Below, piece by piece: positions 7,265 to 23,569 of a DNA stretch of 23,656 bases; position 1 is the stretch's first letter, and every line of letters begins with the position of its first letter. Under the pieces are notes generated by a model. The model was not told the DNA's origin and did not search any database. It worked only from the letters and a program-made list of their open reading frames with translations. The DNA lies in IMG/VR virus record IMGVR_UViG_3300020472_000168, positions 1-23,656 of that record, one strand, 5' to 3'. The stretch is from a virus. The translations under genes were made by a program, and so were the position numbers.

Positions 7265-10200
7265 ATGAGTTTTCATATTAATTCCGATAAAGAAAAAATT
7301 AGGGGCGTCAACCCTAAAATTATTGGTGATAATGAGACTACCATAAGAGTTGGCAGTGGAGCTGACGAACGAGAAATAATGCGTTTGGAGTTAGATACTC
7401 AAAGCGGGTTACCTCGTGTTGGTATTAACAGAACTGGTCAGAGAGTTAATAATATCAACGTCACTGCAGGTGGTTCTGGGTATACATTAGCTCCTACTGT
7501 TGTTGTTGATGCTCCTCCTAGTGGAGGAACTCAAGCTCTTGCTTCCGCGTTTATTTTTAATGGTGCTGTTGTTTCTGTAGCAGTAAATGATCCTGGTAAT
7601 GGATACACGACTGCTCCAAACGTTGCATTTACTGGTGGTAATGGAGCTGGTGCTGCAGCAACTTCAGTCCTTGATACTGTTGATTTTGAACTTGATATTA
7701 ATGGTGCTATCAGAACCTCTACATCTATTATTTCTGATACTGCTAGAATTTTAAACTTAGATATTGAGAACTTTATCACTCCAGATCTAAATTTAAGAGC
7801 ACCAAATCTTAAGACATATATGAATGGAACTGGTACGCCATGGGCTGCCAATGTTATTGTAGCTAAAGGTGCTTATAGATACGCACAAGGAAATGTATAC
7901 GAAGCAACCAACACAGGAACATCTGGAACAAGTGCTCCTATTCATAAAGATGGAATCGTACTTAATGGTGAGGTAAACTTTAAACACATTGGTTTCAGAG
8001 TTGACGATAATAATGATTTCAAGTATCTTGAAACTGGTAACGCTGGTGTATTTCCCCGTTCTATCACACCCATACTAGGTGATAGATCTGACAAAATTGC
8101 AACTACAGAATACGTACTTAACCTAGCAACAAATGACGTTGGTGGTCGTGTTTATGTGTCCGCACAAATTGGTTCTGACTTAAATGATGGTCGTTCTGCT
8201 GTAAACCCAGTCCGTACTATCAAGAAAGCAGCACAGATTGCATGGTCAACACCTGGTGTTAAAGAAACACTTATTGTATCTGGTGGAGATTATGTAGAAG
8301 ATAACCCAATTTCATTACCTCCAGACTGTTCAGTTGTTGGTGACAACCTTCGTTTGGTTATTGTCAGACCAGCTAACCTTGGAAAACATATTTTCAAATT
8401 TGGTGATAAAAACTATGTTACTGGAGTAACATATAGAGATAAAATTGATTCCAATGGCGACTCAATTGGAACTTGGGATTATGCTATGGTCTTTGACGAT
8501 AAGCAAAGAATCGTTATTGATAATGAAGCAAACGGAGATGCTAGTGTAGAGTTTCCAATTGGACATCAAATTTTTGGACCAGAAAGATTTCGTATTGGAT
8601 TCCAAAATAACACAGGATTGGCATTATTACAATCTAATGTTGAAGCTGTAGGTTTAAACACTGGTGCTAGAGCAAATATTGTTGATGTTGCCTTTACTAC
8701 CACCACAGGTGCCAGTGCATATGTCACTGGTACTATTGATGTACAGTTAAAATCTGGTTCCTTAATTGAAGGTGATCAGTACAGTTATATTACATCTGCA
8801 TCTACTGGTGGTGCATCATCATTAACTATTTCAGGTACATCTGGTAATAACAAACTAAGGTTTACCAATGATCCATCATCTGAAATTCCAGTAAATTCTG
8901 TTGTATTTTTAGATGATACTGATAATTCTAGTTTTACATCAGGTTATTATCAAGTAACTAGTATTGATACTTCAAACTCACCAACTTATTGGGATGTTGA
9001 GTTTATTCCAATCTTAGGTGCTCCTTCTTGGGATACTACACTAACAGAAACCATTGCAATGAGTTCTGCTACAACAGTATCCAATACAATAGATACTGTC
9101 AATCTAAAATCAATTAGATCTGAGGGTGAAGTTGTTTCTTATGATCAAGATGTAACATCAACTCTACCTATTTCTAGAGTTGATTTCTCTTTACAAGGAG
9201 ATGCTAGTATTGCAACAGGTGGTTTCCAACAAGCTCAATTTGGAAGTGCAGAAGATATTGGTGGTATTGTTTTCTATACAAGTGCTCTTGTAGGTAGAAC
9301 AAATTTCCATGAATTTAAAGAAGGACAAGAAATTATTATTAGTGGAATGCCAACTAATAGTCCAGATTTGTCTTTCCTTAATGGTAAACAAAGAATTTAC
9401 AAAGTTTTAGAAGATGCTGATGGTCGTGCAAGAAGATTTGTAATTCCTAAAAAATTCCCATCATTAACAACATCAAACTTTAATCCAGGAGAATTTGCAA
9501 CAGTACAGTCATATTCTAAAGTTGTTACATTATCACTATTAAACTCACCAAACAAGTTTCCTCTTGCTACACCTGTTGAAAGAAGGTATCAAGATGCTTG
9601 TCAGTTAATTAGAAATAATAGAGATTATATTGCAGAGGAAGTAGTTGGTAGAATTAATAAGGAATTCTCAAAAGATTATTTTGCTGTATATAATATTAAT
9701 ACCGTCAGTAATACTTTTGACATTTATCTTGGTGCTACAGATCATGTAAACACATATGTTAGTGGTGGTACAGTAACATTTGGCGGTAGTTCGTATACAA
9801 TTAGTAATTTTGTATATGACAATGTAGGTGGTGTTGCTACAGTTACAACAACTAATCCTGCTGTTAGTGCATTATCTGAAGATGATATTGTTAAATTAGC
9901 AGATATTCTTATTTCTTGTAGTGCAGGTCAAAAAGTATATCCAGCATACAGTGCTCCAACTTCTGGAATCAATACTGGTGATGATGGTGATACACAATGT
10001 AAGCAAGATATTATTCACTTCTTAAATGCTCTAGTAAGAGATCTTGAGTTTGGAACTAACCATAATATTATTGAAGGTTCTAAAAAATATATTATTGATG
10101 GCAAGATCACTTATATTGATGATGAAATTATTCAGAATGTGCGTGCTATTGAATATGCCAGAGAATTAGCAATTTATGCAATGTGTAACTGGAGGATTAA

Positions 10201-13200
10201 AGATAGAACTCCTACTGATCCTCTATACGTTACAAAATATGCTACATCTACAAGATATATTGATGATACAATTATATCAGCAACAGCAGGAAATCCACGT
10301 TGTGATGATGTAAGAGCTGCTATTGATACTTTATCGTTCTTGTGGGCTGATGTTATCACTAATAATGCTAATGGAACTTATCTTGATGCTGCATATTTAA
10401 TTGCAAGAAACGCTGATGTAATTGCAGATCAAGCACTTATTGATACAGAAGCTGCATATCCAACACTTGATCTTTCTGATTTACATCAGAGAAAATGTCG
10501 TAGAGATATTAAGATTGTATTAGAAGGATTATTGAGAGATTTAGTTCTTGGTGGAAACCATGGTGTTGTTTCTACTGCAGAGGCATACTTTAGCGGAACT
10601 GTTCTTTCTGGTATCTCAGAAGGACAAAGAGCAGAAACACTTTATGCTTTTGAAAGAGTAAAACTATATTCCATCCAGGCAATGCGTAACTGGTCTGATG
10701 GAAACGTTTTACTAACAACTCCAACAGGATCTACGTATGTTCCTGCTACAGGAGCATTGACAGTAGTTATTCCAGATCCAGCAGTAGCACCTGTAGCAAA
10801 CTCAGACAGGATTGCTTTCTCTGAGGGAGCGTTAACATTTACTTGTGCATATGGTGGTGGTGGTACTGATGCAGGTCCTTATAGAACTGACATTGCATTT
10901 GGTAAGAGTTTCTTAATCACTAACGTAGCTTCTAGTGGTGGTAACACTACACTTTCACTTAATGTTGGTGTTGCAGGAAGCAATACTGACACACATACAT
11001 TTGATAGTGCTCTTGCTAATGGCACTAAAATTATCTATGGTCCTATTACATTAACATCTCCAATTCCTAGGTATGAAGATTGGAGTATCTTAACTGAAAG
11101 TGGTGCTGCTCCTATTGGCATATTTACTCCATCAAATGTTACTTATGATCCAGCAAATGGTGATCTTACATTTACTACTGCAACTGCACATAATTTAACA
11201 AACTCCAATACAATTCGTTTCCAACCAGAATCATTGGTGTTTACTTGTGATATGGATAATGATGCTACAGAGCATAGATATCCACAAAATGGTCAACCTG
11301 CATTTGGTAATAACCTTGTAATTACTGGAACAACATCCAATACAGTTACAGTTAATGTTGGTGCTGTTGGTAGTAATGTTCAATTTACACCTACTGCAGG
11401 AAGTTATGATCCTGCAACAGGAATAATGACACTAGAGATTGGTGCTCATACTTTAGATGTTGGAGAAGGTGTTGTTATTGCTGATAATTCATTATCATTC
11501 AAGTGTTTAATGGATGGTAATACTGCAACTAAGACATATCCAAGACCTTCTATTGATAGAGTTAGTGGAAGATCAATTTCAATTGCAGGAAAAACAGCAA
11601 CTACAATTTCAGTTAATGTTGGTAAATCTCCTGCAGATAGAACATTCCAAGCAGGTTCTAACACAGCATATGATCCTGTATCTGGACTTTTAATTCTTGA
11701 TGTAGGTACTCAACATGGTATTGGCGTAGGAAGAAATATTGTATTAGAAGATGGTGCTGTAACGTTTACATGTAATCTTGATGGTAATGCAACTCAACAT
11801 AGTTATCCTCGTTCAACCGACCCTGCATCTGGAACATCTCTAGAGGTTACTGATGTTACAACTTCATCACATACAGTAAGCAATGCACCATACGATGCAG
11901 CTACTGGTATTATAACATTCACATTATCATCTCATGGATGGGCAACTGGTGATTATATCAAGATTGATGATGATGCATTAACATATAAATGTGAACTTGA
12001 TGGTAATTCAACTGATCATGCTTATCCTCGTGCTGGATTTGATTATGCAAGTAATCGTTGGTTACCGATTACAAAGATAGATGACAATACATTCTCAGTT
12101 GATGTTGGTGTTTCTTCTTCTGCTGATCAATATACACATACATTTGTAAGTGCTGCAGCTAACGGAATTAAGAGGCAAGCTGGATTAATAGTTGTTAATG
12201 TTGGTACTACTCCTCTTGTTAATTTCACTCCTAGTGGAGTAACATACAATACTACAAGTGGTGATTTAGTTATTCAATTGAATGCAAATCATGGACTTAC
12301 TGTTGGAACAAGCATTAAACTTGCTACAGATTCATTAACATTTGAATGTCCTGCTGCTGTTGGAACTCATACATTTGTAAGTGGAACTACTGGAGCAATT
12401 CAAGCAAGTAATGGTAATACCAATACATTTACTGCTATAACAGGTACAACTTATAATCCTACAACTGGAGTTTTAATATTAAAATTCTCTGGTGCTCATG
12501 GTTTATCAACAAGTAATAAAGTCACGATTGCTAACGGTGGAGTTACATTTACTTGTGATGCTGATAATCATGCAACAAACCACCCATATCCTAGAGCATC
12601 TGATCCTGTATCAGGACAAGCACTTGACATTGATGCTGTAACTAGTGATACAATTGAAGTTAATGTTGGTATAGCATCTTCAAATAGTCAGAGTACATAT
12701 CCTCGTGCAACAGGTGCTAATACATCTAGTGGTGCTGACTATGCATATGACACTGCTCTACCAATTACTAATGCAGATCAGGCAGCTGGTACAATTACAA
12801 TTAATGTTAATGGTGGACAAGGTGCAATTAGTGTAGGATCTACCCATACATTTGTATCTGCAACAGCTGGAGCAGTAATTTCTGGTGGTAATTACGCACA
12901 TACATTTGTAAGTGGTCTTGCAAATGGTATTAAATTTACACCACAATCTGCACATACATTCGTATCTGCAACAACTAATGCAATTTCACATACTCCAAAT
13001 TCACCTCACGCATTTATAAGAGCAAATACAGATGCTGTAAGTGCTTATTCTTCTAGTGCTGGATCAATTTGTGCAAATGTAGAATCTAGTATTAACACAG
13101 CATTAGAACTGTTTGCAGATATTCTAGACGGAACAACCCTTCCTGGATCTACAACCCAAACGTTTGGAACTTTATATGATACTGCTCCTATCATTACATA

Positions 13201-16200
13201 TCCAGATAGTTACATCACTGATTTCTATAATCAGAGAATGGCAGTTCGTGGTATTTACGATGATTATCCTATCATTGAAGCATCTCCATATACACAGAAC
13301 GCATCTGTTATTTCCTTTAGAGGGGGTGGTGGTGCTCTTGTTGATGGATCTAAAGTTAAGCAACCTAACTGCCCATTTGCTGGATTAGAACCAGATGGAA
13401 CAGCATCCTTCCCTAATCAGGGTAAATCCATGGTTGCTGCAGCGTTCACGATTGTGTCGTTTGGTGGTACTGGATATAGAATTATAGAAGATGGATATGT
13501 ACAGTTAGTTTCTGTATTTGTTATTTTCTGTCAAGACGGTGTTCTTGCTGAATCAGGTGGTTATGCATCTATTACTAACTCTGCTACCAACTTTGGTACA
13601 TATGCTTTAAGGGGTAAGGGATATAGAGAAGAATGTTATGAGTTTGACCAAGGAACAGTTAATGTTGTATCTCAGACTCCAACTGGAAGAACCACCATGA
13701 CAATTGGTGGTATTGGTAGGGAACCACTTGAGCACTACATTGTTAAATTGGACGGATATACAAATGCAGATCCAACCAAAGAATTCTTTATTGATAGTGT
13801 AAGTGGTGTTACTGTAGGACCACCTTTCTCAGCGACTCTTATAATTGATGATGGTGTGGGTAATGGATTAAGTCTGATTGAAACCGCAACTGGTAATACT
13901 ATTTCTGGACTAACAGCATTACAAGCTGCGTTAACACCAGCTGCTGCATCTAACGCAACAATCAAGTTACATAGACCATCAATTGTTAATTCCTCATCAC
14001 ACACTTGGGAATTTGCTGGTTCTGGTAACAATTATCTTGCATTACCTGAAAACGGTGGTACTAAGGTAGAAGCAAATGAGCAAGTATCTCAAGATTATGG
14101 TCGTGTTTATGTTTCAGGTACTGACGAACTTGGAGACTTCAAGGTTGGTACATTTGCTAGAATTGAGAACAGAACTGGTAACATTACCTTTACTGGTACG
14201 GTTACAATTTCTGAAGTTGAATTCTTGAAATTGAAGGGTGGTGATGTTGTTGTTACTGGTTTTGATGCATCTAACACACTTGGTGGTGCTAACACTAGTG
14301 ACTCTAAACTACCTACACAGAAGGCAGTTAAGGACTTCATTACAAACAACTTAGGTCCTTATATTAACAAACCTTTCTCAACTAACGCTGTTCCTAGAGC
14401 ACTGGTTGAACTTACTGATTCTGGTAAAATTTCTATTGACCAGATCCCTGCACTCAGACCTTTCCAAGTATTTACTGTTGCAACTCAAGCAGATAGATTA
14501 AAGATTGAAGGAGCACTTGCTGGTGACATCGCTATCCAACAGGATACATCACAGTCATTTATTTTGAACAATGACCTTGAGAGTTTATTCTTAGGATTTG
14601 CAGTTGATTCTACTCTTGTATTTAATATCAACGATGTATATACTGGTACTCCTTCTACAGGTAGAATCCAAGCTACTGAATATAGAGAGGGTGTACTTCG
14701 CCAAATTCTTATTACTAACGGTGGTTCTGGATATACTGTTGCTCCTACCGTATCAATTTCTGGTGGTAATCCAACAGCTGGTGCTGTTGCAGCAACTGCA
14801 ACTTGTACAATTGCAAACGGTGAAATCGTCACTGTTACAATTAATGAAAACGCTGGTTTGATTGGTGGTTCTGGATATACCACACAACCAGTAATTACAA
14901 TTCAAGCACCTCCAGGAGCTGGTACGCAAGCACAAGCAGATGGTTTTATTGAAAGTAGATTGTATGGTGATATTGTTAACAATATCAAGATGCTTGATAC
15001 TGATACATTTGATGATAGTGATTCACCATCTGCAAATACTATCAATATTAGCAGAGTTGTCAACACATCTTCTACTAACAATTCTAACTGGGTATCACTA
15101 TCATCTAACCAAATTGCCGCATCAGATATTACATCGGGTGTCATTGAAACAGATAGATTGGCATCAGGTGGTGCTGCTAACTCTTTCACCTTCTTAAGAG
15201 GTGACCAAAACTTTGCTCCTGCTGTTCAGTCAGTTAAAGGTGCAGAAACAAGATACTTCGCAAGACTCGCTGCTCAAGCATCAGTTGGTGCTAACGCCTT
15301 TATCTTTACTAGCAATTCTGATGCTTTGATTGGTCACTCAGTTGTAGCAAACGTTGCTGGTATTGCAGCAAATACAAACATCAATGGAATTACTACTGTT
15401 GGTGGATTGACAACTGTTTCTCTTAATAATCCAATTACAGCAACAATTGCATTAGGAACAGTTATTGAATTTGAAAGAGGAGAATCTCCTCTAACATTTG
15501 ATTCTTCAAATACAATTGGTAACTTTATTGACAGTGTTGTAATTGCTAATCCTGGCACTGGTTACACTGACGGTCAATATTTTGATATTGGTCTTGATGG
15601 AGGAACAGGAAATGATTTAAGAGCTAACCTTATTATTTCTGGTGGAGCAATTACAGATGCAACTGTAACAAATGCTGGTTCTGGTTATACTGCAGATTTC
15701 CAAATTACTCCTAATCCAGGTGCAATTGGTGCTGGATCTAACCTAGTTCTTCTTGGTAAAGTTAGCACTGTTAATAAGCAGTTTGCTAACGTTGCAGTTG
15801 ATATTCAAAGAGTTTCTGATTTAACAATTTCTGCTGATCTTTTCGGAACAATTGGTGTTTCTAGATTTAAGAAATCTCAGTTCAACATTGGACAAGAAGG
15901 AAACGGTTCTATTACAATTAAAACTGGTCCTGACAGTGGACTTGATGCAGATTTATTAGATGGTCAGCAAGGTGGTTACTACCTTAACGGTGCGTTCTTC
16001 GTTGACAGTAGTATCGGTCCTGATAAACTTGCTAGTGGTACTTACAGTATTGATATTAGTGGTAGATCTACTAACACACTTCGTGTTGACACTGGTATTA
16101 ATAACCCAACTTCTAACCCATCACCAAGTGATTCGGTTCAAGGTTTAACACTAAGCACAGTATTCAATAGTTCTAATGGGTTATTAACAGCATTCCCAAG

Positions 16201-18475
16201 TGTAGACACTGGTACTTCTAACTCAGCTAAACACTTAGTTATGACTCTCCGTAATGGTGAGTCTGGTATTGATGCCACATATGGTGGTGTCAGACAACTC
16301 GCATTTGGTAATGACGATAGATTATATTTACGAGGTTCTGGTGATGGTGTAACAACATATGGATCTTGGTATCAAATTTGGAACTCAGGAAATCAGGGTA
16401 TTGACTCAGGATTAGATGCTGACAAACTTGATAATAAAGAGGGTGCTTGGTATCAAGATGGTTGGAATATTCAGAATAATGAAATTTTTGATACAAGACT
16501 TCCAGTATGGAGAAGTTCTACTAAATTTAGAAATAAAATTGAGATCAAATCATATACTGGAACCGATGTTTCATACAGAATTTTAGTAAGACAAGTTCTT
16601 GATACTTCAGTAGGTGGAGATTTTGAACCAGGTTCTCAAATTAATATCTACAATGTTAACAAGCAAGACATTGGTGACTTCTTTATTGATAATGTACAGC
16701 AATTAGATGATCAGAATGATTCTACTAGAAGTTACACAATGCTTATTGGTAGACTTGCTTCTGGTGGTAATCTTGAGACTGCTATATTCGTGGGAGTTGC
16801 TGGTGATGAAAGAAACTTTGAAAACTATGAAATTTATGATAGCAACACCACACAATTTGCAGAAATTGGAAATGATGGTGGAAATGGTTTTGTAAGACTT
16901 GGTAGATATGATGGCAGTTTTGCCACAAATCCATACATCTGGTTTAACTCATCTCTACAACAAGCTGCAGATAACAATGGTGATCCTTCTTACAACTCTG
17001 CTATTATTGCCGATGGTGGTGATGCAACAGAAGGATCTGGTTCTTTAGAATTTAAAGTTGTAGATGAAAATGCATTAAAGGTTAACAATAACATTCTTTG
17101 GAACGCAGGTAACGTTGCTTTTAACACTGCTAACGTTTCATCTACAGCGTCACTCAAGTCTGCTGTAATGAGAGATACCAGTGGCAATTTTGCTGCTGGT
17201 ACAATCACTGCTGCATTAACAGGTGCTGCTTCACTCAACGTATTGAAAACTGGTGATACAATGACTGGTGGTTTAACAATCACTGGTAATAATAACATTA
17301 ACATTCAAGGAACTGGTACTTTATCTGTTGGAGCAAGTGCAACTATTGGTACTAATCTAACTGTTGATTCTGGAACTTTCTACGTTAATGCTACTGATAA
17401 CGTAGTTAACATTGGTCAAACAACTAACTCTAATAATGTTACATTTAATGTTTATGATAACATTGGTGATAATGAGTATGATGAAACTGCAGCATTATCT
17501 TCACAAAGATCAATCTATCATTCAAGTGTATTCAATCAAAACAATGCTGGTGAATCTGGTCTGATTCTACAACATGGTGCATCTGGTGCTGCTCAATGGG
17601 GTATTTCAACACATAGAACTGGTAGTAGTGTTGGTGAACTGATCTTTAGAACTAGAACAGCTGGTTCTAGTTCTGCTACAAGGTTGGTTATTAGCAGCGG
17701 TGGAAATGTTCTTCCTGGTGAAGATAGTGATCAAGATTTTGGTGCTGATGGTACAAGATGGCAGAACATTTACAGTGATATCACACACGCACTTAACAGT
17801 GTAAGGATTGCTAAAGGAACTGCAAACCAAGAAGCAGACATCCAATTAAGAGGTGGTGGAACTGCTGCTGGTGGTGGTAGAGGATTCCGTTTAGGATCTA
17901 ACATTGGTGGTGGTGCTGATCTTTTTGAAATTTACTCATCTGAAACCAATGGTCAAGATGATTGGAAGAGTTTAGCAACTCCAGCTGGAGCACCAGCAAT
18001 CGCAATTCAAGGTGCTAATAACAGGGTTGGTATTAATACTAACACTTTCTCTGGTACTGATACTAGCGCAGATCCAAATGTTAATAGAGATTATATCCTG
18101 AATGTTCAGGGTGATATGAACCTCAATGGTCAATTCTTCCAAAACAATGAGGAGTTTGTAACTTCTAGATGGACAGAATCTTCAAATGATTCTGGTGCTA
18201 ACATCTACAGAAACTCCAAGGTTGGTATTGGTAATGTTCCATCACCTGCTTATCAATTAGATATATCTGGTGACCTTAATATGTCTGGGAAGATGTATGT
18301 TGGTGGACAAGCACAATGGTTAGATTCTAAAGGAATCATTAGAACAACATCTAATTTAATTGAAAGTAATGCCACTGTTAATTCTGGTGTTATCGCACAG
18401 TCAGGTGGTCCAGTAGAAATTGCGGATGGTTACACTATCACAATTTCTAGTGGTGGTACTTGGTCTATTATCTAA
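7265..18475 (+). CDS. giant modular tail fibre-like protein (3736 aa)
   Basis: Start: the ATG at 7265 is preceded by AGGGA at 7255-7259. The protein is fibre-like, Gly/Ser/Thr/Asn-rich, with no signal peptide. Approximate order: Gly-rich 'GSGYT' units (66-130); carbohydrate-binding-like module 'PW-x-x-N-x-x-V-x-x-G-x-Y-x-Y' (190-245); 'KIATTEYV' linker; a beta-helix-like segment with 'IGSDLNDGRS' and 'RTIKKAAQ' (295-400), as in pectate-lyase-type folds; helical Cys-containing segments (775-1145); seven A-B repeat pairs (1156-1809); four exact 18-residue repeats (1861-1932); a second beta-helix-like region with 'SVFVIFCQDGV' and 'YASITNSATNFG' (1977-2150); 'GDFKVGTFARIENRTG' and 'LPTQKAVKDF' fibre segments (2285-2370); more 'GSGYT' units (2480-2830); two 'GLDAD-x-LD' segments (about 2892 and 3049) as in T4-type long-fibre proteins; and a C-terminal beta tail ending 'SGGTWSII'. 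I infer a host-recognition appendage. No terminal chaperone domain was recognised. Confidence 0.85.
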   Translation: MSFHINSDKEKIRGVNPKIIGDNETTIRVGSGADEREIMRLELDTQSGLPRVGINRTGQRVNNINVTAGGSGYTLAPTVVVDAPPSGGTQALASAFIFNGAVVSVAVNDPGNGYTTAPNVAFTGGNGAGAAATSVLDTVDFELDINGAIRTSTSIISDTARILNLDIENFITPDLNLRAPNLKTYMNGTGTPWAANVIVAKGAYRYAQGNVYEATNTGTSGTSAPIHKDGIVLNGEVNFKHIGFRVDDNNDFKYLETGNAGVFPRSITPILGDRSDKIATTEYVLNLATNDVGGRVYVSAQIGSDLNDGRSAVNPVRTIKKAAQIAWSTPGVKETLIVSGGDYVEDNPISLPPDCSVVGDNLRLVIVRPANLGKHIFKFGDKNYVTGVTYRDKIDSNGDSIGTWDYAMVFDDKQRIVIDNEANGDASVEFPIGHQIFGPERFRIGFQNNTGLALLQSNVEAVGLNTGARANIVDVAFTTTTGASAYVTGTIDVQLKSGSLIEGDQYSYITSASTGGASSLTISGTSGNNKLRFTNDPSSEIPVNSVVFLDDTDNSSFTSGYYQVTSIDTSNSPTYWDVEFIPILGAPSWDTTLTETIAMSSATTVSNTIDTVNLKSIRSEGEVVSYDQDVTSTLPISRVDFSLQGDASIATGGFQQAQFGSAEDIGGIVFYTSALVGRTNFHEFKEGQEIIISGMPTNSPDLSFLNGKQRIYKVLEDADGRARRFVIPKKFPSLTTSNFNPGEFATVQSYSKVVTLSLLNSPNKFPLATPVERRYQDACQLIRNNRDYIAEEVVGRINKEFSKDYFAVYNINTVSNTFDIYLGATDHVNTYVSGGTVTFGGSSYTISNFVYDNVGGVATVTTTNPAVSALSEDDIVKLADILISCSAGQKVYPAYSAPTSGINTGDDGDTQCKQDIIHFLNALVRDLEFGTNHNIIEGSKKYIIDGKITYIDDEIIQNVRAIEYARELAIYAMCNWRIKDRTPTDPLYVTKYATSTRYIDDTIISATAGNPRCDDVRAAIDTLSFLWADVITNNANGTYLDAAYLIARNADVIADQALIDTEAAYPTLDLSDLHQRKCRRDIKIVLEGLLRDLVLGGNHGVVSTAEAYFSGTVLSGISEGQRAETLYAFERVKLYSIQAMRNWSDGNVLLTTPTGSTYVPATGALTVVIPDPAVAPVANSDRIAFSEGALTFTCAYGGGGTDAGPYRTDIAFGKSFLITNVASSGGNTTLSLNVGVAGSNTDTHTFDSALANGTKIIYGPITLTSPIPRYEDWSILTESGAAPIGIFTPSNVTYDPANGDLTFTTATAHNLTNSNTIRFQPESLVFTCDMDNDATEHRYPQNGQPAFGNNLVITGTTSNTVTVNVGAVGSNVQFTPTAGSYDPATGIMTLEIGAHTLDVGEGVVIADNSLSFKCLMDGNTATKTYPRPSIDRVSGRSISIAGKTATTISVNVGKSPADRTFQAGSNTAYDPVSGLLILDVGTQHGIGVGRNIVLEDGAVTFTCNLDGNATQHSYPRSTDPASGTSLEVTDVTTSSHTVSNAPYDAATGIITFTLSSHGWATGDYIKIDDDALTYKCELDGNSTDHAYPRAGFDYASNRWLPITKIDDNTFSVDVGVSSSADQYTHTFVSAAANGIKRQAGLIVVNVGTTPLVNFTPSGVTYNTTSGDLVIQLNANHGLTVGTSIKLATDSLTFECPAAVGTHTFVSGTTGAIQASNGNTNTFTAITGTTYNPTTGVLILKFSGAHGLSTSNKVTIANGGVTFTCDADNHATNHPYPRASDPVSGQALDIDAVTSDTIEVNVGIASSNSQSTYPRATGANTSSGADYAYDTALPITNADQAAGTITINVNGGQGAISVGSTHTFVSATAGAVISGGNYAHTFVSGLANGIKFTPQSAHTFVSATTNAISHTPNSPHAFIRANTDAVSAYSSSAGSICANVESSINTALELFADILDGTTLPGSTTQTFGTLYDTAPIITYPDSYITDFYNQRMAVRGIYDDYPIIEASPYTQNASVISFRGGGGALVDGSKVKQPNCPFAGLEPDGTASFPNQGKSMVAAAFTIVSFGGTGYRIIEDGYVQLVSVFVIFCQDGVLAESGGYASITNSATNFGTYALRGKGYREECYEFDQGTVNVVSQTPTGRTTMTIGGIGREPLEHYIVKLDGYTNADPTKEFFIDSVSGVTVGPPFSATLIIDDGVGNGLSLIETATGNTISGLTALQAALTPAAASNATIKLHRPSIVNSSSHTWEFAGSGNNYLALPENGGTKVEANEQVSQDYGRVYVSGTDELGDFKVGTFARIENRTGNITFTGTVTISEVEFLKLKGGDVVVTGFDASNTLGGANTSDSKLPTQKAVKDFITNNLGPYINKPFSTNAVPRALVELTDSGKISIDQIPALRPFQVFTVATQADRLKIEGALAGDIAIQQDTSQSFILNNDLESLFLGFAVDSTLVFNINDVYTGTPSTGRIQATEYREGVLRQILITNGGSGYTVAPTVSISGGNPTAGAVAATATCTIANGEIVTVTINENAGLIGGSGYTTQPVITIQAPPGAGTQAQADGFIESRLYGDIVNNIKMLDTDTFDDSDSPSANTINISRVVNTSSTNNSNWVSLSSNQIAASDITSGVIETDRLASGGAANSFTFLRGDQNFAPAVQSVKGAETRYFARLAAQASVGANAFIFTSNSDALIGHSVVANVAGIAANTNINGITTVGGLTTVSLNNPITATIALGTVIEFERGESPLTFDSSNTIGNFIDSVVIANPGTGYTDGQYFDIGLDGGTGNDLRANLIISGGAITDATVTNAGSGYTADFQITPNPGAIGAGSNLVLLGKVSTVNKQFANVAVDIQRVSDLTISADLFGTIGVSRFKKSQFNIGQEGNGSITIKTGPDSGLDADLLDGQQGGYYLNGAFFVDSSIGPDKLASGTYSIDISGRSTNTLRVDTGINNPTSNPSPSDSVQGLTLSTVFNSSNGLLTAFPSVDTGTSNSAKHLVMTLRNGESGIDATYGGVRQLAFGNDDRLYLRGSGDGVTTYGSWYQIWNSGNQGIDSGLDADKLDNKEGAWYQDGWNIQNNEIFDTRLPVWRSSTKFRNKIEIKSYTGTDVSYRILVRQVLDTSVGGDFEPGSQINIYNVNKQDIGDFFIDNVQQLDDQNDSTRSYTMLIGRLASGGNLETAIFVGVAGDERNFENYEIYDSNTTQFAEIGNDGGNGFVRLGRYDGSFATNPYIWFNSSLQQAADNNGDPSYNSAIIADGGDATEGSGSLEFKVVDENALKVNNNILWNAGNVAFNTANVSSTASLKSAVMRDTSGNFAAGTITAALTGAASLNVLKTGDTMTGGLTITGNNNINIQGTGTLSVGASATIGTNLTVDSGTFYVNATDNVVNIGQTTNSNNVTFNVYDNIGDNEYDETAALSSQRSIYHSSVFNQNNAGESGLILQHGASGAAQWGISTHRTGSSVGELIFRTRTAGSSSATRLVISSGGNVLPGEDSDQDFGADGTRWQNIYSDITHALNSVRIAKGTANQEADIQLRGGGTAAGGGRGFRLGSNIGGGADLFEIYSSETNGQDDWKSLATPAGAPAIAIQGANNRVGINTNTFSGTDTSADPNVNRDYILNVQGDMNLNGQFFQNNEEFVTSRWTESSNDSGANIYRNSKVGIGNVPSPAYQLDISGDLNMSGKMYVGGQAQWLDSKGIIRTTSNLIESNATVNSGVIAQSGGPVEIADGYTITISSGGTWSII
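7460..7660 (+). repeat. 'GSGYT' units, N-terminal set of giant fibre
   Basis: Two units read 'GGSGYTLAPTVVV' and 'PGNGYTTAPNVAF', each followed by a GG/GA-rich loop. The same pattern returns at about 14716-14960 ('GGSGYTVAPTVSI', 'GGSGYTTQPVITI') and at 15540-15720 ('PGTGYTDGQYFDI', 'AGSGYTADFQI'), so one building block is used at least six times in this single protein and again in the 1617-aa fibre. Confidence 0.75.
10730..12690 (+). repeat. seven tandem A-B module pairs in giant fibre
   Basis: Module A reads Y-(D/N)-x-x-(T/S)-G-x-(L/I)-x-(L/F), then an HG-rich turn and a basic-hydrophobic strand. Module B reads (L/V)-(T/S)-(F/Y)-x-C-x-x-D-(G/N)-(N/D)-x-T-x-(H/K)-x-YPR, then 'DP-x-SG' and a closing 'V-x-V-N-V-G'. 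Cysteines of the B units are encoded near 10844, 11245, 11503, 11779, 11990, 12347 and 12553. B1 and B6 are shortened or divergent: B1 lacks 'YPR' and B6 jumps from 'FECPAAVG' to an 'HTFVSG' motif. The average period is about 93 residues. Confidence 0.85.
12845..13060 (+). repeat. four tandem 18-residue (54-bp) 'HTFVSA' repeats
   Basis: Histidine codons at 12845, 12899, 12953 and 13007 each open an 18-residue unit: 'HTFVSATAGAV', 'HTFVSGLANGI', 'HTFVSATTNAI' and 'HAFIRANTDAV', each followed by a 5-7 residue Gly/Ser/Asn/Pro-rich linker. The spacing is exactly 54 bases three times. Isolated relatives occur near 12138 and 12369 in the same gene and near 3971 in the 1617-aa fibre gene. Confidence 0.9.
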
Positions 18476-18744: not shown

Positions 18745-18752
18745 TATAAATA
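18745..18752 (+). promoter_or_regulatory. T4-type late promoter (TATAAATA, perfect match)
   Basis: The octamer TATAAATA is identical to the T4 late promoter consensus recognised by RNA polymerase carrying gp55. It lies 27 bases before the ATG of the 364-aa adhesin gene, in the 51-base gap after the previous stop. It is the best promoter in the window and marks the adhesin and downstream genes as late. Confidence 0.75.
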
Positions 18753-18771: not shown

Positions 18772-19866
18772 ATGTCTACATTAAACGCAGGGACTTTAAA
18801 TGTCACGGAAAAATTAAATCTTCCAACATATAATGTTTCTCAAAGAGATGCACTAAGTGGAGTTTCAACAGGATTTATGATCTTCAATACTGAAGACAAT
18901 GTAGTCCAAGTATGGAACGGAACTGATTGGAGTAGTGGAGGAAGCACAGGAAATGATGGTTCTTCCGCAGAAAAAGCTGCTACTTCTTTACAAGATTTAG
19001 TAGATGCTGGTATTACTGCTGATGGTGTTTACTGGTTTCAAGATTCTGGTGCTCAGACATATCAAGCATATTGCAAGATGCAGAGTTCAATTGATGGAGT
19101 TCCTTGGATTTTAGTATTTAATATTAATACAGACAGTGCTCAAAATAGTCAAGGAGGAATTCCGCATTGGGATAATACTTCTTTCTGGACTACCCAGAAC
19201 TCACAGGGATCATCAGCAAATAATCCATGGACAGCAAATGTTAAAACAAGAGCTTACGACAAATACCCAGTAAGTAAATTTTGTTTCATGGTTCACAAAC
19301 AAGGTGGATTTGACAATACAGCTGGTCAACTTCATGGATATGGAGTTTACAAGAATGATAACTATCCTGGTCAGACCATGTATACCATGATGGCATCGGG
19401 TACAAATAAAACTATTTCAAATAGTGCAAGAGAAAGTGGTCAAGATTATTCTCAAGGATTAACTTGGAATAATAACCGCCCACAAATTTTGGGTGGAGAT
19501 TTGTTTATTTCAAATACTATTAATGGTTATAACAACGCATCATATAATTTGATGTTTAATGTTACTAACAATTTTAATTCTTCCAACGAAGCAAAAGCAA
19601 GAATTTCTACATCAGGTGCCTCTGGTAATGGTAACTATGGATACACTGCTGGTGGTGTTGGTGTAAAACACGGACACAATGGTAACTGGGGTGGATATGC
19701 TGGATACTGTATGGTTTCTGCATATTGTGGAGGAAAGGAGATTTATGGATCCAACAGTAATGGAGTTAACTACCTAGGTGGTATTAACCCAAATTCTCCA
19801 TTCATCAATTGTATGGGTGGTGGTAATGGAGTTGTTAATTATAACCTAGCACTTTGGGTAAGATAA
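18772..19866 (+). CDS. candidate tail adhesin with fibrinogen-related-like domain
   Basis: A 364-residue protein with a good ribosome binding site (AGGA at 18762-18765) behind the perfect late promoter. Residues 17-53 are the short fibre module ('LPTYNVSQRDAL ... MIFNTEDNVVQVWNG'). Residues 69-118 read 'SLQDLVDAGITADGVYWF', 'AYCKM' and 'PWILVF', the pattern of the first part of fibrinogen-related or intelectin-like domains (D-G-V-Y-W, then Y-C-x-M, then W-x-L-V). The C-terminal 85 residues are rich in Gly, Asn and aromatic residues, with four Cys ('YCMVSAYCGG', 'FINCMGGG' and others), and end 'NYNLALWVR'. Such domains usually bind glycans or acetylated groups in calcium-dependent fashion, so a role as receptor-binding tip is plausible. 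Binding residues cannot be assigned here. Glycine-rich loops also occur in T-even gp38 adhesins, by analogy only. Confidence 0.7.
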   Translation: MSTLNAGTLNVTEKLNLPTYNVSQRDALSGVSTGFMIFNTEDNVVQVWNGTDWSSGGSTGNDGSSAEKAATSLQDLVDAGITADGVYWFQDSGAQTYQAYCKMQSSIDGVPWILVFNINTDSAQNSQGGIPHWDNTSFWTTQNSQGSSANNPWTANVKTRAYDKYPVSKFCFMVHKQGGFDNTAGQLHGYGVYKNDNYPGQTMYTMMASGTNKTISNSARESGQDYSQGLTWNNNRPQILGGDLFISNTINGYNNASYNLMFNVTNNFNSSNEAKARISTSGASGNGNYGYTAGGVGVKHGHNGNWGGYAGYCMVSAYCGGKEIYGSNSNGVNYLGGINPNSPFINCMGGGNGVVNYNLALWVR

Positions 19867-20151
19867 ATGAAACTTAAAATTTTTAAAAACAAAACAGTTG
19901 TAGATGCAAATAACGAATTTACATACGTTATAGAACTTTATGATGATGCTGGAAAACTAAACAATACAAATATTGTTAAGGTTCCTCCAACCAAATACAT
20001 GACACCAGATGACAGTAAGTTTACTGTAGCACCTACATTAAATCAAGTAAAGTTTTCTATGGAATGTAAGAGAGATCCAAACATTCCAACGGATCAACAC
20101 ATGCCAGAGTTTACTCTGGATAGATGCGAGATTGAGGAAGTTATGCTATAA
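19867..20151 (+). CDS. unknown 94-aa protein coupled to the adhesin
   Basis: The ATG follows the adhesin stop codon without a gap. The protein is basic at its start ('MKLKIFKNKTVV') and acidic at its end ('DRCEIEEVML'), with 'FTYVIELYDDAGKL' and 'PPTKYMTPDDSKFTV' in between. It is likely to be a small beta/alpha cytosolic or virion protein, with no signal peptide or membrane segment. I do not recognise a family. By position it could be an assembly chaperone or a partner of the adhesin, as small genes after phage adhesins often are, but nothing in the sequence proves it. Confidence 0.6.
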   Translation: MKLKIFKNKTVVDANNEFTYVIELYDDAGKLNNTNIVKVPPTKYMTPDDSKFTVAPTLNQVKFSMECKRDPNIPTDQHMPEFTLDRCEIEEVML

Positions 20152-20172
20152 TAATTTGATACGACGTATATT

Positions 20173-20769
20173 ATGATAACTGAATTATTTCCTATATCAA
20201 TTTACAAAGCAAAGGTAGAGAGCAATTCTGATATCCAGTCTCTGTGTATGGGGTGGGTAGAAGAAGAATACGAAAAGAATCCAACAACGTTCTCTGCTCC
20301 ATGGGATAATGATATTTTTACCAGTTATGGTAAAGATGTTGGATTTTCTTGGCAAGACGTATTGCCTTTGTATGTGCCTAATTTTGAAGAGCTTGCTAAA
20401 GAAATGAATATTTCTGGACAAGTTTCTGTCAATAGTGCATGGGTTAATGCATATAAAACCAATCAATCTCATGATTTACATGATCATTTACCATGCCAAT
20501 TTTCTGCTGTTCATTATTTAAAATATAATCCAGAAGTTCATACTTCTACTATATTTGTAAATCCATATAGGCAAGTGTCTATCTCTTCGTCTCCAAGACA
20601 TGAGTCTTTTCTTATGGATCAAATCCCACCAATGTGGCATCCTCAATCAACACTAGAAGTTGAAGAAGGGGACATTTTAATCTTCCCATCATTTTTTGAA
20701 CATAGAGTTGCTAGACAAACAAGTGATGAGTTGAGGGTAACTATTTCATTCAACTTTAATTTTATGTGA
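20173..20769 (+). CDS. 2OG-Fe(II) oxygenase-like protein 1
   Basis: A 198-residue protein of the small cyanophage type of 2-oxoglutarate and Fe(II)-dependent oxygenase. It starts 'ITELFPISIYKAKV'. The central 'WVNAYKTNQSHDLHDHLP' carries H103-D104-H105, followed by 'FSAVHYLKY'. The C-terminal 'EEGDILIFPSFFEHRV' gives a distal His177, and Arg188 eleven residues later is placed to hold 2-oxoglutarate. This is the layout of the putative 2OG-Fe(II) oxygenase family common in marine T4-like phages, and the length is normal. Such enzymes couple decarboxylation of 2-oxoglutarate to hydroxylation of a substrate, here unknown. The ATG at 20173 follows the previous gene by 21 bases with a poor Shine-Dalgarno. 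It is the first gene of the coupled cassette. The first metal pair is HxH rather than the textbook HxD/E. Confidence 0.75.
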   Translation: MITELFPISIYKAKVESNSDIQSLCMGWVEEEYEKNPTTFSAPWDNDIFTSYGKDVGFSWQDVLPLYVPNFEELAKEMNISGQVSVNSAWVNAYKTNQSHDLHDHLPCQFSAVHYLKYNPEVHTSTIFVNPYRQVSISSSPRHESFLMDQIPPMWHPQSTLEVEEGDILIFPSFFEHRVARQTSDELRVTISFNFNFM

Positions 20770-20771
20770 TT

Positions 20772-21386
20772 ATGGCATTACAAGCATTGGAAATTTTCCC
20801 AACCAGATTGTTTCATTCTGACTGGGAAGGTGATACTGAAGCTCTTTTAGAATACATTAAAAGATCTTTTACTAACGAAGGGACACAGGTTGTTGATCAA
20901 TCCACACCTAATCTATATCTAGATCCTAACTGCTCAGAGTTATTTGGATTTATAAATCAGTGCCTTGAAGAACTAAAACAAGGATATGAATTTAAGTGTG
21001 ATGGATTTAAAATAACTACAGCGTGGGCAAACAAATATGGTCCACATACTTCAAATCAATTTCATCGTCATCCTATGAGTGCATGGAGTGGGGTGTTTTT
21101 CTTAACTGAGGGAGCTCCTCTTGCTGTAAGAGATCCAGTTGTGTATAGATCACATCAATCTACAATGCCTATCTCTCCACACGAGAATTCATATTTTACT
21201 TTAGATCCTGTCCCAGGAAGAGCAGTGTTTTTTCCTCACTGGGTAGAACACGGAGCAATTAATGATAGAGAAGAAGAGAGATGGTCTATAGCATTTAATT
21301 CAATGCCATATGGAAAAGTTAACTTTAATGATGGTAGAAATTTATCTTCTGCTATTTTAAGAGTAGAAGATTACATTGATGAATAA
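20772..21386 (+). CDS. 2OG-Fe(II) oxygenase-like protein 2
   Basis: I prefer the ATG at 20772, giving 204 residues that start 'MALQALEIFPTRLFHSDW' as family members usually do. A GTG at 20766 overlapping the previous stop would add two residues and cannot be excluded. Motifs follow the same plan as the preceding gene: 'AWANKYGPHTSNQFHRHP' with H98 and H100, then 'AWSGVFFL', then 'GRAVFFPHWVEHG' with the distal His160, and 'EERWSIAFN' with Arg170 ten residues later. This again gives a complete set of likely iron and 2-oxoglutarate residues. The protein is clearly homologous in plan to its neighbours, probably an old duplication, but it differs strongly in sequence, so the substrates may differ. 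Its end overlaps the start of the sulfotransferase-like gene by eight bases. Confidence 0.75.
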   Translation: MALQALEIFPTRLFHSDWEGDTEALLEYIKRSFTNEGTQVVDQSTPNLYLDPNCSELFGFINQCLEELKQGYEFKCDGFKITTAWANKYGPHTSNQFHRHPMSAWSGVFFLTEGAPLAVRDPVVYRSHQSTMPISPHENSYFTLDPVPGRAVFFPHWVEHGAINDREEERWSIAFNSMPYGKVNFNDGRNLSSAILRVEDYIDE

Positions 21387-22167
21387 AGAATATTTTTTTA
21401 TTGCTGGATTTCCTAGAGCTGGAGAAACATTGCTTTCAACAATTCTAAATCAAAATTCAACATTTCATTCTGGTCCAGAATCTCCAGTATGTAATTTAGT
21501 ATCTAGTGTGTATGACGTATTAGGAACTAATGAACAACAATTATTATATCCAAAAGTTGATTGTTTTAAACACATCGCAAAGGGAATTGCTGACGGATAT
21601 TATTCGGATGTAAAAGAAAAATATATCTTTGATAAATGTAGAGTGTGGAATAGCATTTTCAACATCAATCACATACTGGGAGTTATAAACCAAAATATTA
21701 AGGTGATTTGTTGTGTTAGAAGTATTCTAGAAATACTAACATCATATGTCTGTTTAATTGAAAGATCTAAAAATTCTTTTGTTGATGTAAATTTATCCAA
21801 GCTTGGATTAGAAATTAATAATTCAAATCGTTGTGAATGGTTGATGCAAAGAGAAGGTCTAATTGATCTTGTGATAAACTGTATGAGAGAATCCTATAAA
21901 TTGGATTGTGTTCATCTAGTTGAATATGACGACCTAGTTTTAAACACAAATAAAACTATTAGTAAGTTGTATAGATTTTTAGATTTACCAGAGCATCAGC
22001 ATGAGTATAAAAATTTAGAGAACAAATTTCCCCCAAGGGATGATCTACTAGGATTACCAGATCTTCATTACGTTAGAAATACTGTAGAGAAAACTTCTAG
22101 AAATCCACATGATGTTTTACCCCCTTCTATCATAAAAAAATATAAAGACATAGAGTTTTGGAGATGA
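21379..22167 (+). CDS. sulfotransferase-like protein
   Basis: The ATG at 21379 gives 262 residues and overlaps the previous stop by eight bases; the TTG just before it is a weaker start. Residues 6-19 read 'FFIAGFPRAGETLL', matching the 5'-phosphosulfate-binding loop of sulfotransferases (usually 'PRSGTTLL'). 'TILNQNSTFHSGPESPV' follows, as in phage sulfotransferases. Residues 109-123 ('KVICCVRSILEILTSY') match the 3'-phosphate-binding motif, with Arg114 and Ser122 as likely contacts. Family members transfer a sulfuryl group from PAPS to hydroxyl or amino groups of glycans, lipids or small molecules. Two residues of the loop differ from the usual form (Ser to Ala, Ser/Thr to Glu), so activity is not certain. 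The gene sits between oxygenase genes with translational coupling on both sides, suggesting a joint pathway. It could also be inactive. Confidence 0.75.
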   Translation: MNKEYFFIAGFPRAGETLLSTILNQNSTFHSGPESPVCNLVSSVYDVLGTNEQQLLYPKVDCFKHIAKGIADGYYSDVKEKYIFDKCRVWNSIFNINHILGVINQNIKVICCVRSILEILTSYVCLIERSKNSFVDVNLSKLGLEINNSNRCEWLMQREGLIDLVINCMRESYKLDCVHLVEYDDLVLNTNKTISKLYRFLDLPEHQHEYKNLENKFPPRDDLLGLPDLHYVRNTVEKTSRNPHDVLPPSIIKKYKDIEFWR

Positions 22168-22727
22168 CAGTTATTGATGCGTTTACAGTACCTATATTTA
22201 CATATAATAATGTAGAGGTGATAAAAAATTTAGATCTGAAAAAGTATAATCACCAACAAACATTTGATCTCCATCAAGATAAGAATTTTACAGAACTTGT
22301 AAATTTTAAAAAGGAGTCGGCAAAAGATTGTTTATCTGAAATGGGATACTCCACTGATTATGAAATTGATATTACAACCATGTGGATTAATATTATGAAG
22401 CCACATTCCCATACAAACGAAATGATACCTCATTCACATGATAATCAATTTTTAAGTTGTGTTTTTTATACAGAGAAAATCAATAGTCCTATTGTTTTTC
22501 AGAGACCGTGGATTACACAATTCTCTCCAACTAAAATAGATAACACTGCTTATAATGCAAATTCTTATTTCATCCAACCAGAAGAAGGAGATCTTATAAT
22601 TTTTCCTTCATATCTACTTCACCAAGCATTGATAAATGTTCATATGTATGATAGAATTTCTATAGCATCTAATGTTGTATTGCGTGGAAATTACGGCAAT
22701 CACGAAGGAACCAGAGTAAAATTATGA
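22164..22727 (+). CDS. 2OG-Fe(II) oxygenase-like protein 3
   Basis: The ATG at 22164 overlaps the stop of the sulfotransferase-like gene as ATGA, and gives 187 residues; the TTG six bases upstream is less likely. The start 'MTVIDAFTVPIFTYN' matches the family. 'EMIPHSHDNQFLSCVFYT' supplies H90 and H92, and 'EEGDLIIFPSYLLHQAL' the distal His153. Arg164 in 'YDRISIASN' lies eleven residues after it, and 'GNYG' follows near the C-terminus, as is usual for this family. This is the third member in the window with the H-x-H form of the metal site. Its stop overlaps the next start as ATGA, so all genes from 20772 to 23335 are read in a closely coupled row. Confidence 0.75.
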   Translation: MTVIDAFTVPIFTYNNVEVIKNLDLKKYNHQQTFDLHQDKNFTELVNFKKESAKDCLSEMGYSTDYEIDITTMWINIMKPHSHTNEMIPHSHDNQFLSCVFYTEKINSPIVFQRPWITQFSPTKIDNTAYNANSYFIQPEEGDLIIFPSYLLHQALINVHMYDRISIASNVVLRGNYGNHEGTRVKL

Positions 22728-23335
22728 TTAAAGATTTTGAATTGAGAGATGATTTTATCGGAATATTTTATTCCGATATAAATTGCAGTCAGTATATTGA
22801 CTTCCATAAAAGATCAGATGAAGCAAATAATATTATTCGCAGAAGAAATGTAAATGTTGAAGATAATAAACCTCAAAAAAGAGCACAACTAGTACAGGAT
22901 GATCTTGTTACTATTGATACTACTTCTCATATGTTGAATTTTAATAGAAACGTTCCATTACTTTCTGATTATAATAATCTAACTTCCCAAGCAATGGACT
23001 TGTATGTTCAAAGGTGGAATAGTGTTGCTAATTTTGAGTTTCAACAAGCTTATATGAATATTCAAAAGACTTCCAAATCTCAAGGGTATCATGTTTGGCA
23101 TTATGAAGATGGACCGTATGCGAACAATAGAAGAATGTTTGCTACAATGTTATATCTAAATGATGTTGAAGAAGGTGGGGAAACTGAATTTTTATATCAG
23201 TCCCTCAGAGTAAAACCAGAGAGAGGTAAATTTTTAATCTGGCCAGCACAGTGGATGCATACGCATAGGGGAAACCCTCCATTATCTGGTGAGAAATATA
23301 TTATTACCAGTTGGATTGAGAATACTGAACTATAA
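22724..23335 (+). CDS. prolyl-4-hydroxylase-type 2OG-Fe(II) oxygenase
   Basis: A 203-residue protein of a different oxygenase subfamily from the three before it. 'GYHVWHYEDG' carries the H-x-E pair (H126, E128), followed by the family's 'LYLNDVEEGGETEF' and the C-terminal 'WPAQWMHTHRGN'. The distal His is probably H181, with Lys191 ten residues on in 'GEKYIITSWIE', the same His-to-Lys distance as in prolyl-4-hydroxylases, where Lys binds the C5 carboxylate of 2-oxoglutarate. All catalytic residues appear present, so activity is likely. Proteins of this subfamily are common in marine T4-like phages next to structural genes. The substrate could be a proline or other residue of a phage or host protein; this is inference. 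It is last in the coupled cassette and is followed by a gap with a late-promoter-like motif. Confidence 0.85.
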   Translation: MIKDFELRDDFIGIFYSDINCSQYIDFHKRSDEANNIIRRRNVNVEDNKPQKRAQLVQDDLVTIDTTSHMLNFNRNVPLLSDYNNLTSQAMDLYVQRWNSVANFEFQQAYMNIQKTSKSQGYHVWHYEDGPYANNRRMFATMLYLNDVEEGGETEFLYQSLRVKPERGKFLIWPAQWMHTHRGNPPLSGEKYIITSWIENTEL

Positions 23336-23341
23336 TAAATA
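23334..23341 (+). promoter_or_regulatory. late-promoter-like motif (AATAAATA)
   Basis: AATAAATA overlaps the stop codon of the last oxygenase and matches the relaxed T4-like late motif NATAAATA. It lies 35 bases before the ATG of the small coiled-coil gene. Confidence 0.5.
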
Positions 23342-23368: not shown

Positions 23369-23569
23369 ATGGATCCTGCACAATTAAAAAAGAATTTTGA
23401 AGAACAGATTGCTTCTACCGAAAAGCAAATTATAGAGCTAGAAGCAAATCTAGTCAAAGCAAAAGAATATAAAATGAAATTGGTAGGAGGTTTAGAAACA
23501 CTAGGTCTTTTAGAAGGTGAATCTGAAACACCACCTGCACCACCAGAACCAGAAGCACCAGCAGAATAA
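23369..23569 (+). CDS. small coiled-coil protein with acidic Pro-rich tail
   Basis: With the ATG at 23369 the protein has 66 residues (a GTG at 23360 would add three). Residues 5-45 ('QLKKNFEEQIASTEKQIIEL', then 'EANLVKAKEYKMKL') form a continuous helix with heptad-like Ile/Leu spacing, probably a coiled coil. 'GGLETLGLLEGE' and a Pro/Glu/Ala tail ('PPAPPEPEAPAE') follow. A protein of this plan is found in many marine T4-like cyanophages next to the neck genes, but I know of no function. It is the last gene before the terminator and has its own candidate late promoter, so it may be made as a separate abundant message. A structural or assembly role is a guess. Confidence 0.75.
   Translation: MDPAQLKKNFEEQIASTEKQIIELEANLVKAKEYKMKLVGGLETLGLLEGESETPPAPPEPEAPAE

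Follow-up and report, generated by a model that had tools for sequence, protein, structure and literature searches.

Oxygenase and sulfotransferase genes associated with a lectin-type tail adhesin in a cyanomyovirus fragment

A gene block between the long tail fibre and the neck

We analysed a stretch of viral DNA of 23,656 nucleotides (IMG/VR record IMGVR_UViG_3300020472_000168, positions 1 to 23,656; hereafter the window) and focused on a block of genes encoding a putative tail adhesin (ADH), a small protein (sm94), four putative 2-oxoglutarate (2OG)-Fe(II) oxygenases (ORF1 to ORF4) and a sulfotransferase (ST). The five enzyme genes are referred to below as the cassette, and the cassette with ADH and sm94 as the module. 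The window (23.7 kb) is part of the genome of a cyanomyovirus near the Synechococcus phages ACG-2014i and ACG-2014e, with ~77% DNA identity over about half of the window. Structural genes are followed by a long tail fibre of 3736 amino acids (aa; 7265-18475), then the cassette, phrog_580 and the gp13 neck gene. An earlier note, made from the sequence alone, had described four oxygenase genes and a sulfotransferase gene chained at 20173-23335, between an adhesin gene and a neck gene. Every junction and domain call in it is correct, and the placement is borne out by the adhesin gene (18772-19866) on one side and phrog_580 and gp13 on the other. A gap of 2 nt separates ORF1 (20173-20769) from the ATG of ORF2 at 20772, the ST ATG at 21379 overlaps the end of ORF2 (21386) by eight bases, and ST/ORF3 and ORF3/ORF4 each have an ATGA in common (22164-22167 and 22724-22727). 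The unit is longer than first described, since it starts at the adhesin at 18772 and takes in the 94-aa gene (19867-20151) before ending at 23335. Coordinates of all features are given in Table 1.

Table 1. Features of the module and its borders in the window
Feature	Position	Strand	Basis
Late-promoter-like box TATAAATA, upstream of adhesin	18745..18752	+	equivalent boxes at module loci
ADH, modular tail adhesin: N-terminal anchor (~residues 1-80) and C-terminal intelectin/fibrinogen-like lectin domain	18772..19866	+	profile and structure matches
sm94, small partner gene (94 aa), conserved, between ADH and ORF1	19867..20151	+	position kept in module loci
ORF1, putative 2OG-Fe(II) oxygenase (PF13759), constant neighbour of lectin adhesin	20173..20769	+	PF13759 3e-16
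ORF2, second putative PF13759 oxygenase	20772..21386	+	PF13759 4e-14; alternative start GTG 20766
ST, Sulfotransfer_3 family, phrog_27463	21379..22167	+	PF13469 8e-11, PF00685 2e-10
ORF3, third putative PF13759 oxygenase, optional cassette member	22164..22727	+	PF13759 2e-14
ORF4, prolyl-4-hydroxylase-like oxygenase (PF13640), HxE...H...K	22724..23335	+	PF13640 2e-12
Late-promoter-like box ATAAATA, after cassette and before phrog_580 gene	23335..23341	+	box survey of module loci
phrog_580 gene, backbone marker adjoining gp13	23369..23569	+	gp13 start ~23620

The order ADH-sm94-ORF1-ORF2-ST-ORF4 recurs in nine other contigs, of which L009 and L010 are near-duplicates, either whole or cut off where the contig ends, and is therefore not a product of chance. 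The enzymes of these contigs have ~46-96% protein identity. A box of the form [ACT]TAAATA lies 26-37 bp before the adhesin gene in 7/7 module loci checked. None of the seven has such a box before any enzyme gene, and the next one usually lies past the last enzyme, ahead of phrog_580. The box is short and single occurrences mean little; the evidence is its position across loci. Judged from this pattern, the block 18772-23335 is probably one late-expressed unit bounded by late-promoter-like boxes.

ADH has 364 aa, and its N-terminal anchor is common to the adhesins of phages S-RSM4 and S-SM1. The C-terminal part matches the fibrinogen-like profile NF040941 at 5e-4, which is below that profile's cut-off, and residues 71-128 match the lamprey serum lectin 7e1e (profile E=1.2e-3). 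The top Foldseek matches, obtained from a weak model (pLDDT 48), are all intelectins or ficolins. The small protein sm94 had no family match in domain and family searches; at the module loci its position is taken by a gene of 82-94 aa with 28-91% identity. Neither full-length ADH nor sm94 had a match in 50,697 phage records, so that, as far as the collections searched go, only uncultivated viruses are known to carry the module. A search of cellular genomes found no relatives of ADH. More generally, the gene right after an anchor-type adhesin often encodes a small uncharacterized protein whose size is tied to the adhesin type (175-196 aa in L119-L155). Such a protein, sm94 in the window, is possibly a chaperone of the adhesin or the true substrate of the enzymes.

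All Pfam matches of the five cassette genes exceed the cut-offs. ORF1 to ORF3 score 53-60 bits against PF13759 and ORF4 scores 48 bits against PF13640 (cut-off 27 in both families). Residues H103, H105, H177 and R188 are invariant across 21 PF13759 proteins. The AF2 model of ORF1 (pLDDT 83) has 3bvc and 2rg4 as its best PDB matches, followed by proline hydroxylases and PHD2, as fits a double-stranded beta-helix fold in which the metal and co-substrate residues are kept. In ORF4 the residues H126-Y-E128, H179/H181 and K191 are invariant, and the nearest structures are the prolyl 4-hydroxylase 3itq (1.3e-9) and LH3 (6e-3). Recent tandem duplication was rejected as the origin of ORF1 to ORF3, which have 18-31% identity. 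ORF3 is missing from L089 and from L009-type contigs and present in L090 (93% identical); in L097 its slot is occupied by a gene of the PF05118 aspartyl/asparaginyl-hydroxylase type. Scans with ORF3 or ST as single proteins reach close relatives only.

In ST the residues of the site for 3'-phosphoadenosine-5'-phosphosulfate (PAPS) are preserved: R13, G15, R114 and S122 are invariant in 91 relatives and T17 occurs in 84. The closest solved relatives by sequence are tyrosylprotein sulfotransferases (nearest structure, a protein-tyrosine sulfotransferase, 3e-4). Glu34 stands at the column where Glu is the catalytic base of the human enzyme, and among the 91 relatives it is found in the 10 cassette members only. 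It is a hint and nothing stronger, as the ten members probably belong to one lineage. Unlike tyrosylprotein sulfotransferases, the cassette ST has ~260 aa and is found in a virus of bacteria, the similarity is remote, and the Glu is missing from most of its relatives in the viral family. The phrog_27463 family is large among viral contigs (>500 candidate IMG/VR loci). Its members lie within 2 kb of oxygenases in 11/28 records versus 5.9 expected (P ~0.01). This general linkage is modest, and the case for coupling therefore rests on the cassette clade and on the adhesin-centred survey described below. Repeat adhesins, DUF6445 genes and GT9-like genes, whose Pfam GT9 match is weak (0.019), recur alongside phrog_27463 in the loci L009-L088.

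Enzyme sets and adhesin types across loci

An IMG/VR scan with the adhesin profile returned 8 loci and one with the ORF1 profile 13. Both scans converge on one set of contigs, and the adhesin and ORF1 genes lie next to each other on every contig of sufficient length. The pairing of ADH with ORF1 is without exception in two genomic contexts, one beside gp13 (the window, L089 and L098-L101) and one in a different structural setting (L009, L092-L094 and L097). The other enzymes depend on the lectin: the window-type lectin comes with ORF2, ST and ORF4, and the L098-type lectin with other oxygenases (PF13640). In the isolates S-RSM4 and S-SM1 the layout is the same but the adhesin has another tip, which is Gly-rich in S-RSM4.

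The wider survey used the ADH anchor alone. Among the five genes downstream of 78 anchor-sharing adhesins, 194/356 (54%) encode an oxygenase or a sulfotransferase, versus 11/226 (5%) of the five upstream. With near-duplicates taken out, 29 adhesins in 13 receptor-domain families remained, for which the difference in enzyme count is 0.72 within and 3.26 between families (0/2000 shuffles), a test that is inflated by shared ancestry not fully removed. For this reason two natural controls, the chimeric ADH of the window and the contig L176, carry more weight.

The window combines two histories. Its long fibre has 73-84% identity to the L098 type versus 22-25% to the L009 type, its phrog_580 protein 70-74% versus 28-33%, and the ADH anchor 53-55% versus 35-36%. 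The relation is reversed in the ADH lectin domain (43-46% to the L098 type versus 62-67% to the L009 type), and ORF2, ST and ORF4 are absent from the L098 type and have 47-64% identity to the L009 type. ORF1 is about equally far from both (47-50%). The apparent switch point is near ADH residues 80-90. A backbone and anchor like those of L098 together with a lectin and ORF2/ST/ORF4 like those of L009 point to a joint exchange, in which the lectin domain and the enzymes probably passed as a unit between distant phage lineages.

L176 provides the second control. Its site is that of L009 and L175, with 82% identity in the adjacent 577-aa gene, but it carries an unrelated adhesin and no enzymes. 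The earlier note had named a lack of co-occurrence of the cassette with particular fibre genes among the findings that would refute its proposal. That comparison has now been made, and the reciprocal searches, the L009 type versus L176 and the chimeric adhesin all favour coupling. The gene beside this site (577-582 aa; L009:4526-6274 and homologues) has a weak methyltransferase match and, in one phage lineage, lies next to the place of the adhesin.

The interval between fibre and neck varies among related phages. In ACG-2014i the matching interval holds three small genes only, with no annotated enzyme. S-CAM4 and Sf-CH1b have other genes there, which in S-CAM4 include Pfam-confirmed oxygenases, and 2OG genes are also present elsewhere in these phage genomes. 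phrog_5449, tried as a reference point for placing oxygenases with respect to fibres across whole genomes, was present in only 4/10 of them.

Possible roles of the enzymes

We read the block 18772-23335 as a late-expressed host-recognition module composed of a lectin-tipped adhesin, its small partner and a lectin-specific set of enzymes that most likely hydroxylate and sulfonate the adhesin; we give this reading a probability of about one half (0.52). Late in infection, the oxygenases would hydroxylate side chains of newly made adhesin, or of its small partner, before virion assembly. ST would move sulfate from PAPS to a hydroxyl, which might be that of Tyr or one introduced by the oxygenases, and the modification could tune the folding of the lectin tip or its binding to glycans. 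We infer action on the adhesin or its partner because the variable slots hold families of protein hydroxylation (the prolyl-4-hydroxylase-like ORF4, and PF05118 in L097) and because cassettes without ST are frequent. The earlier note had proposed a sequential pathway, hydroxylation followed by sulfonation, on virion fibres or a host glycan. Action on the adhesin or its glycan is well motivated by the coupling. The sequence of steps itself is conjectural, as cassettes lacking a sulfotransferase are common (S-RSM4, S-SM1 and L098 types); hydroxylation must therefore be useful by itself.

Several points, besides the inflated family test, speak against modification of the adhesin. The use of 2OG by ORF1, ORF2 and ORF3 is assumed from the family name of PF13759, whose motif is the non-classical HxH...H...R rather than the classical HxD/E...H triad. 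No substrate motif stands out. A collagen-like substrate for ORF4 was rejected within the window, where no protein has a run of at least four Gly-X-Y. Other phrog_27463 members adjoin GT9-like genes and repeat adhesins, with a weaker general link to oxygenases. Finally, enzymes that act on the receptor of the lectin would be expected to follow the lectin just as closely.

This last point leads to the strongest alternative, receptor masking, which we consider unlikely. The enzymes might modify the host surface glycan, or a lipid-linked precursor of it, that the lectin recognises, and so block re-adsorption of progeny to the infected cell or to debris and exclude other phages. The cassette would then have to fit the specificity of the lectin and would likewise be exchanged together with the lectin domain, and the GT9-like and other sugar genes beside other members of the ST family agree with such a role, weak as the GT9 match is. 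On the other hand, four hydroxylase-type enzymes, some of them of the protein-hydroxylase type, would be unusual tools for altering a glycan, and the module (18772-23335) contains no glycosyltransferase. The predicted late co-expression with the adhesin also suits virion maturation better.

It is more doubtful still that the fibre-neck interval is simply a recombination hotspot in which the enzymes are accessory genes with no functional tie to the adhesin. The variability of the interval and the 2OG genes elsewhere in these genomes are what such hitch-hiking would produce. It is disfavoured by L176, where the site is the same but the adhesin is another and the enzymes are missing, by the way in which the receptor-domain family predicts the enzyme set, and by the exceptionless pairing of ADH and ORF1 in two contexts. 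Least probable is a metabolic role, as proposed for cyanophage 2OG oxygenases (PMC3037559, for 2OG level and NtcA; PMC9602691), in which the oxygenases draw down 2OG or act on small molecules and ST sulfonates a metabolite, since this, which like hitch-hiking matches the controls poorly, leaves unexplained the adhesin-specific enzyme sets, the late-type unit shared with the adhesin and the several divergent copies side by side.

A broader and more tentative proposal can also be made. Marine T4-like phages may carry swappable receptor-binding cartridges, in which each type of lectin or adhesin has its own modification enzymes, hydroxylases and here also a protein sulfotransferase; we hold this slightly less probable than its opposite. 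A change of host range would then mean replacing the binding domain along with the chemistry by which it is matured.

Relation to known systems

Tandem 2OG-Fe(II) oxygenases are well documented in cyanomyoviruses such as S-RSM4, S-SM1 and S-SCSM1 (PMC3037559, PMC9602691). They belong to the same families as those of the window (PF13759, PF13640) and are often in tandem; in S-RSM4 and S-SM1 they come after an adhesin that shares the anchor, with a single gene in between. Unlike the cassette of the window, these cassettes go with another adhesin type and have no sulfotransferase, and their oxygenases have been treated as metabolic rather than as partners of an adhesin. Fe(II)-dependent oxygenases have also been tabulated, with lectin-like and fibrinogen-like proteins, in the variable host-recognition islands of marine phage metaviromes (PMC3909814). 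Those islands differ from the window in having no sulfotransferase and no pairing of enzyme set and receptor domain, and no mechanism was proposed for them. The sulfotransferases of phages S-SRM01 and S-SKS1 and of OM43 phages, stated to be of unclear function (PMC10580990), belong to the same general family as ST but have 31-39% identity and other gene neighbourhoods.

A viral precedent for ORF4 is PBCV-1, which encodes a prolyl 4-hydroxylase and for which evidence of hydroxyproline in viral proteins is reported (Eriksson 1999 as cited in PMC9301287). It works as ORF4 might, although the substrates described there are collagen-like and the window lacks Gly-X-Y repeats. In another locus (L040:6734-8767), a protein near a sulfotransferase has a collagen-like GPPGPPGPE stretch and is a better candidate substrate for a prolyl hydroxylase than any protein of the window.

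In the open literature searched we found nothing direct on hydroxylated or sulfated phage fibres. Within that literature, three things seem to be new: the pairing of an enzyme set with a receptor-domain type, its apparent transfer in one piece between distant phages, and the presence of a sulfotransferase in the set. Few unexplained genes of ocean viruses are as numerous as the cyanophage 2OG oxygenases, 24 of which occur in one genome (PMC9602691), and they are mostly treated as metabolic. With enzyme sets tied tightly to adhesin types, and transferable with them, the question becomes testable, as maturation of the receptor-binding protein or as disguise of the receptor. Whichever holds, the counting of auxiliary genes and the prediction of host range from the sequences of marine viruses would have to change.

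Some cassette oxygenases may be concealed by their names. RefSeq genes annotated as 'DNA endonuclease' or 'DNA endonuclease V' match PF13640 above its cut-off in S-RSM4 (L113:7448-7957), S-SM1 (L114:6881-7405) and S-CAM4 (L003:13034-13633), and are likely misnamed oxygenases of such cassettes.

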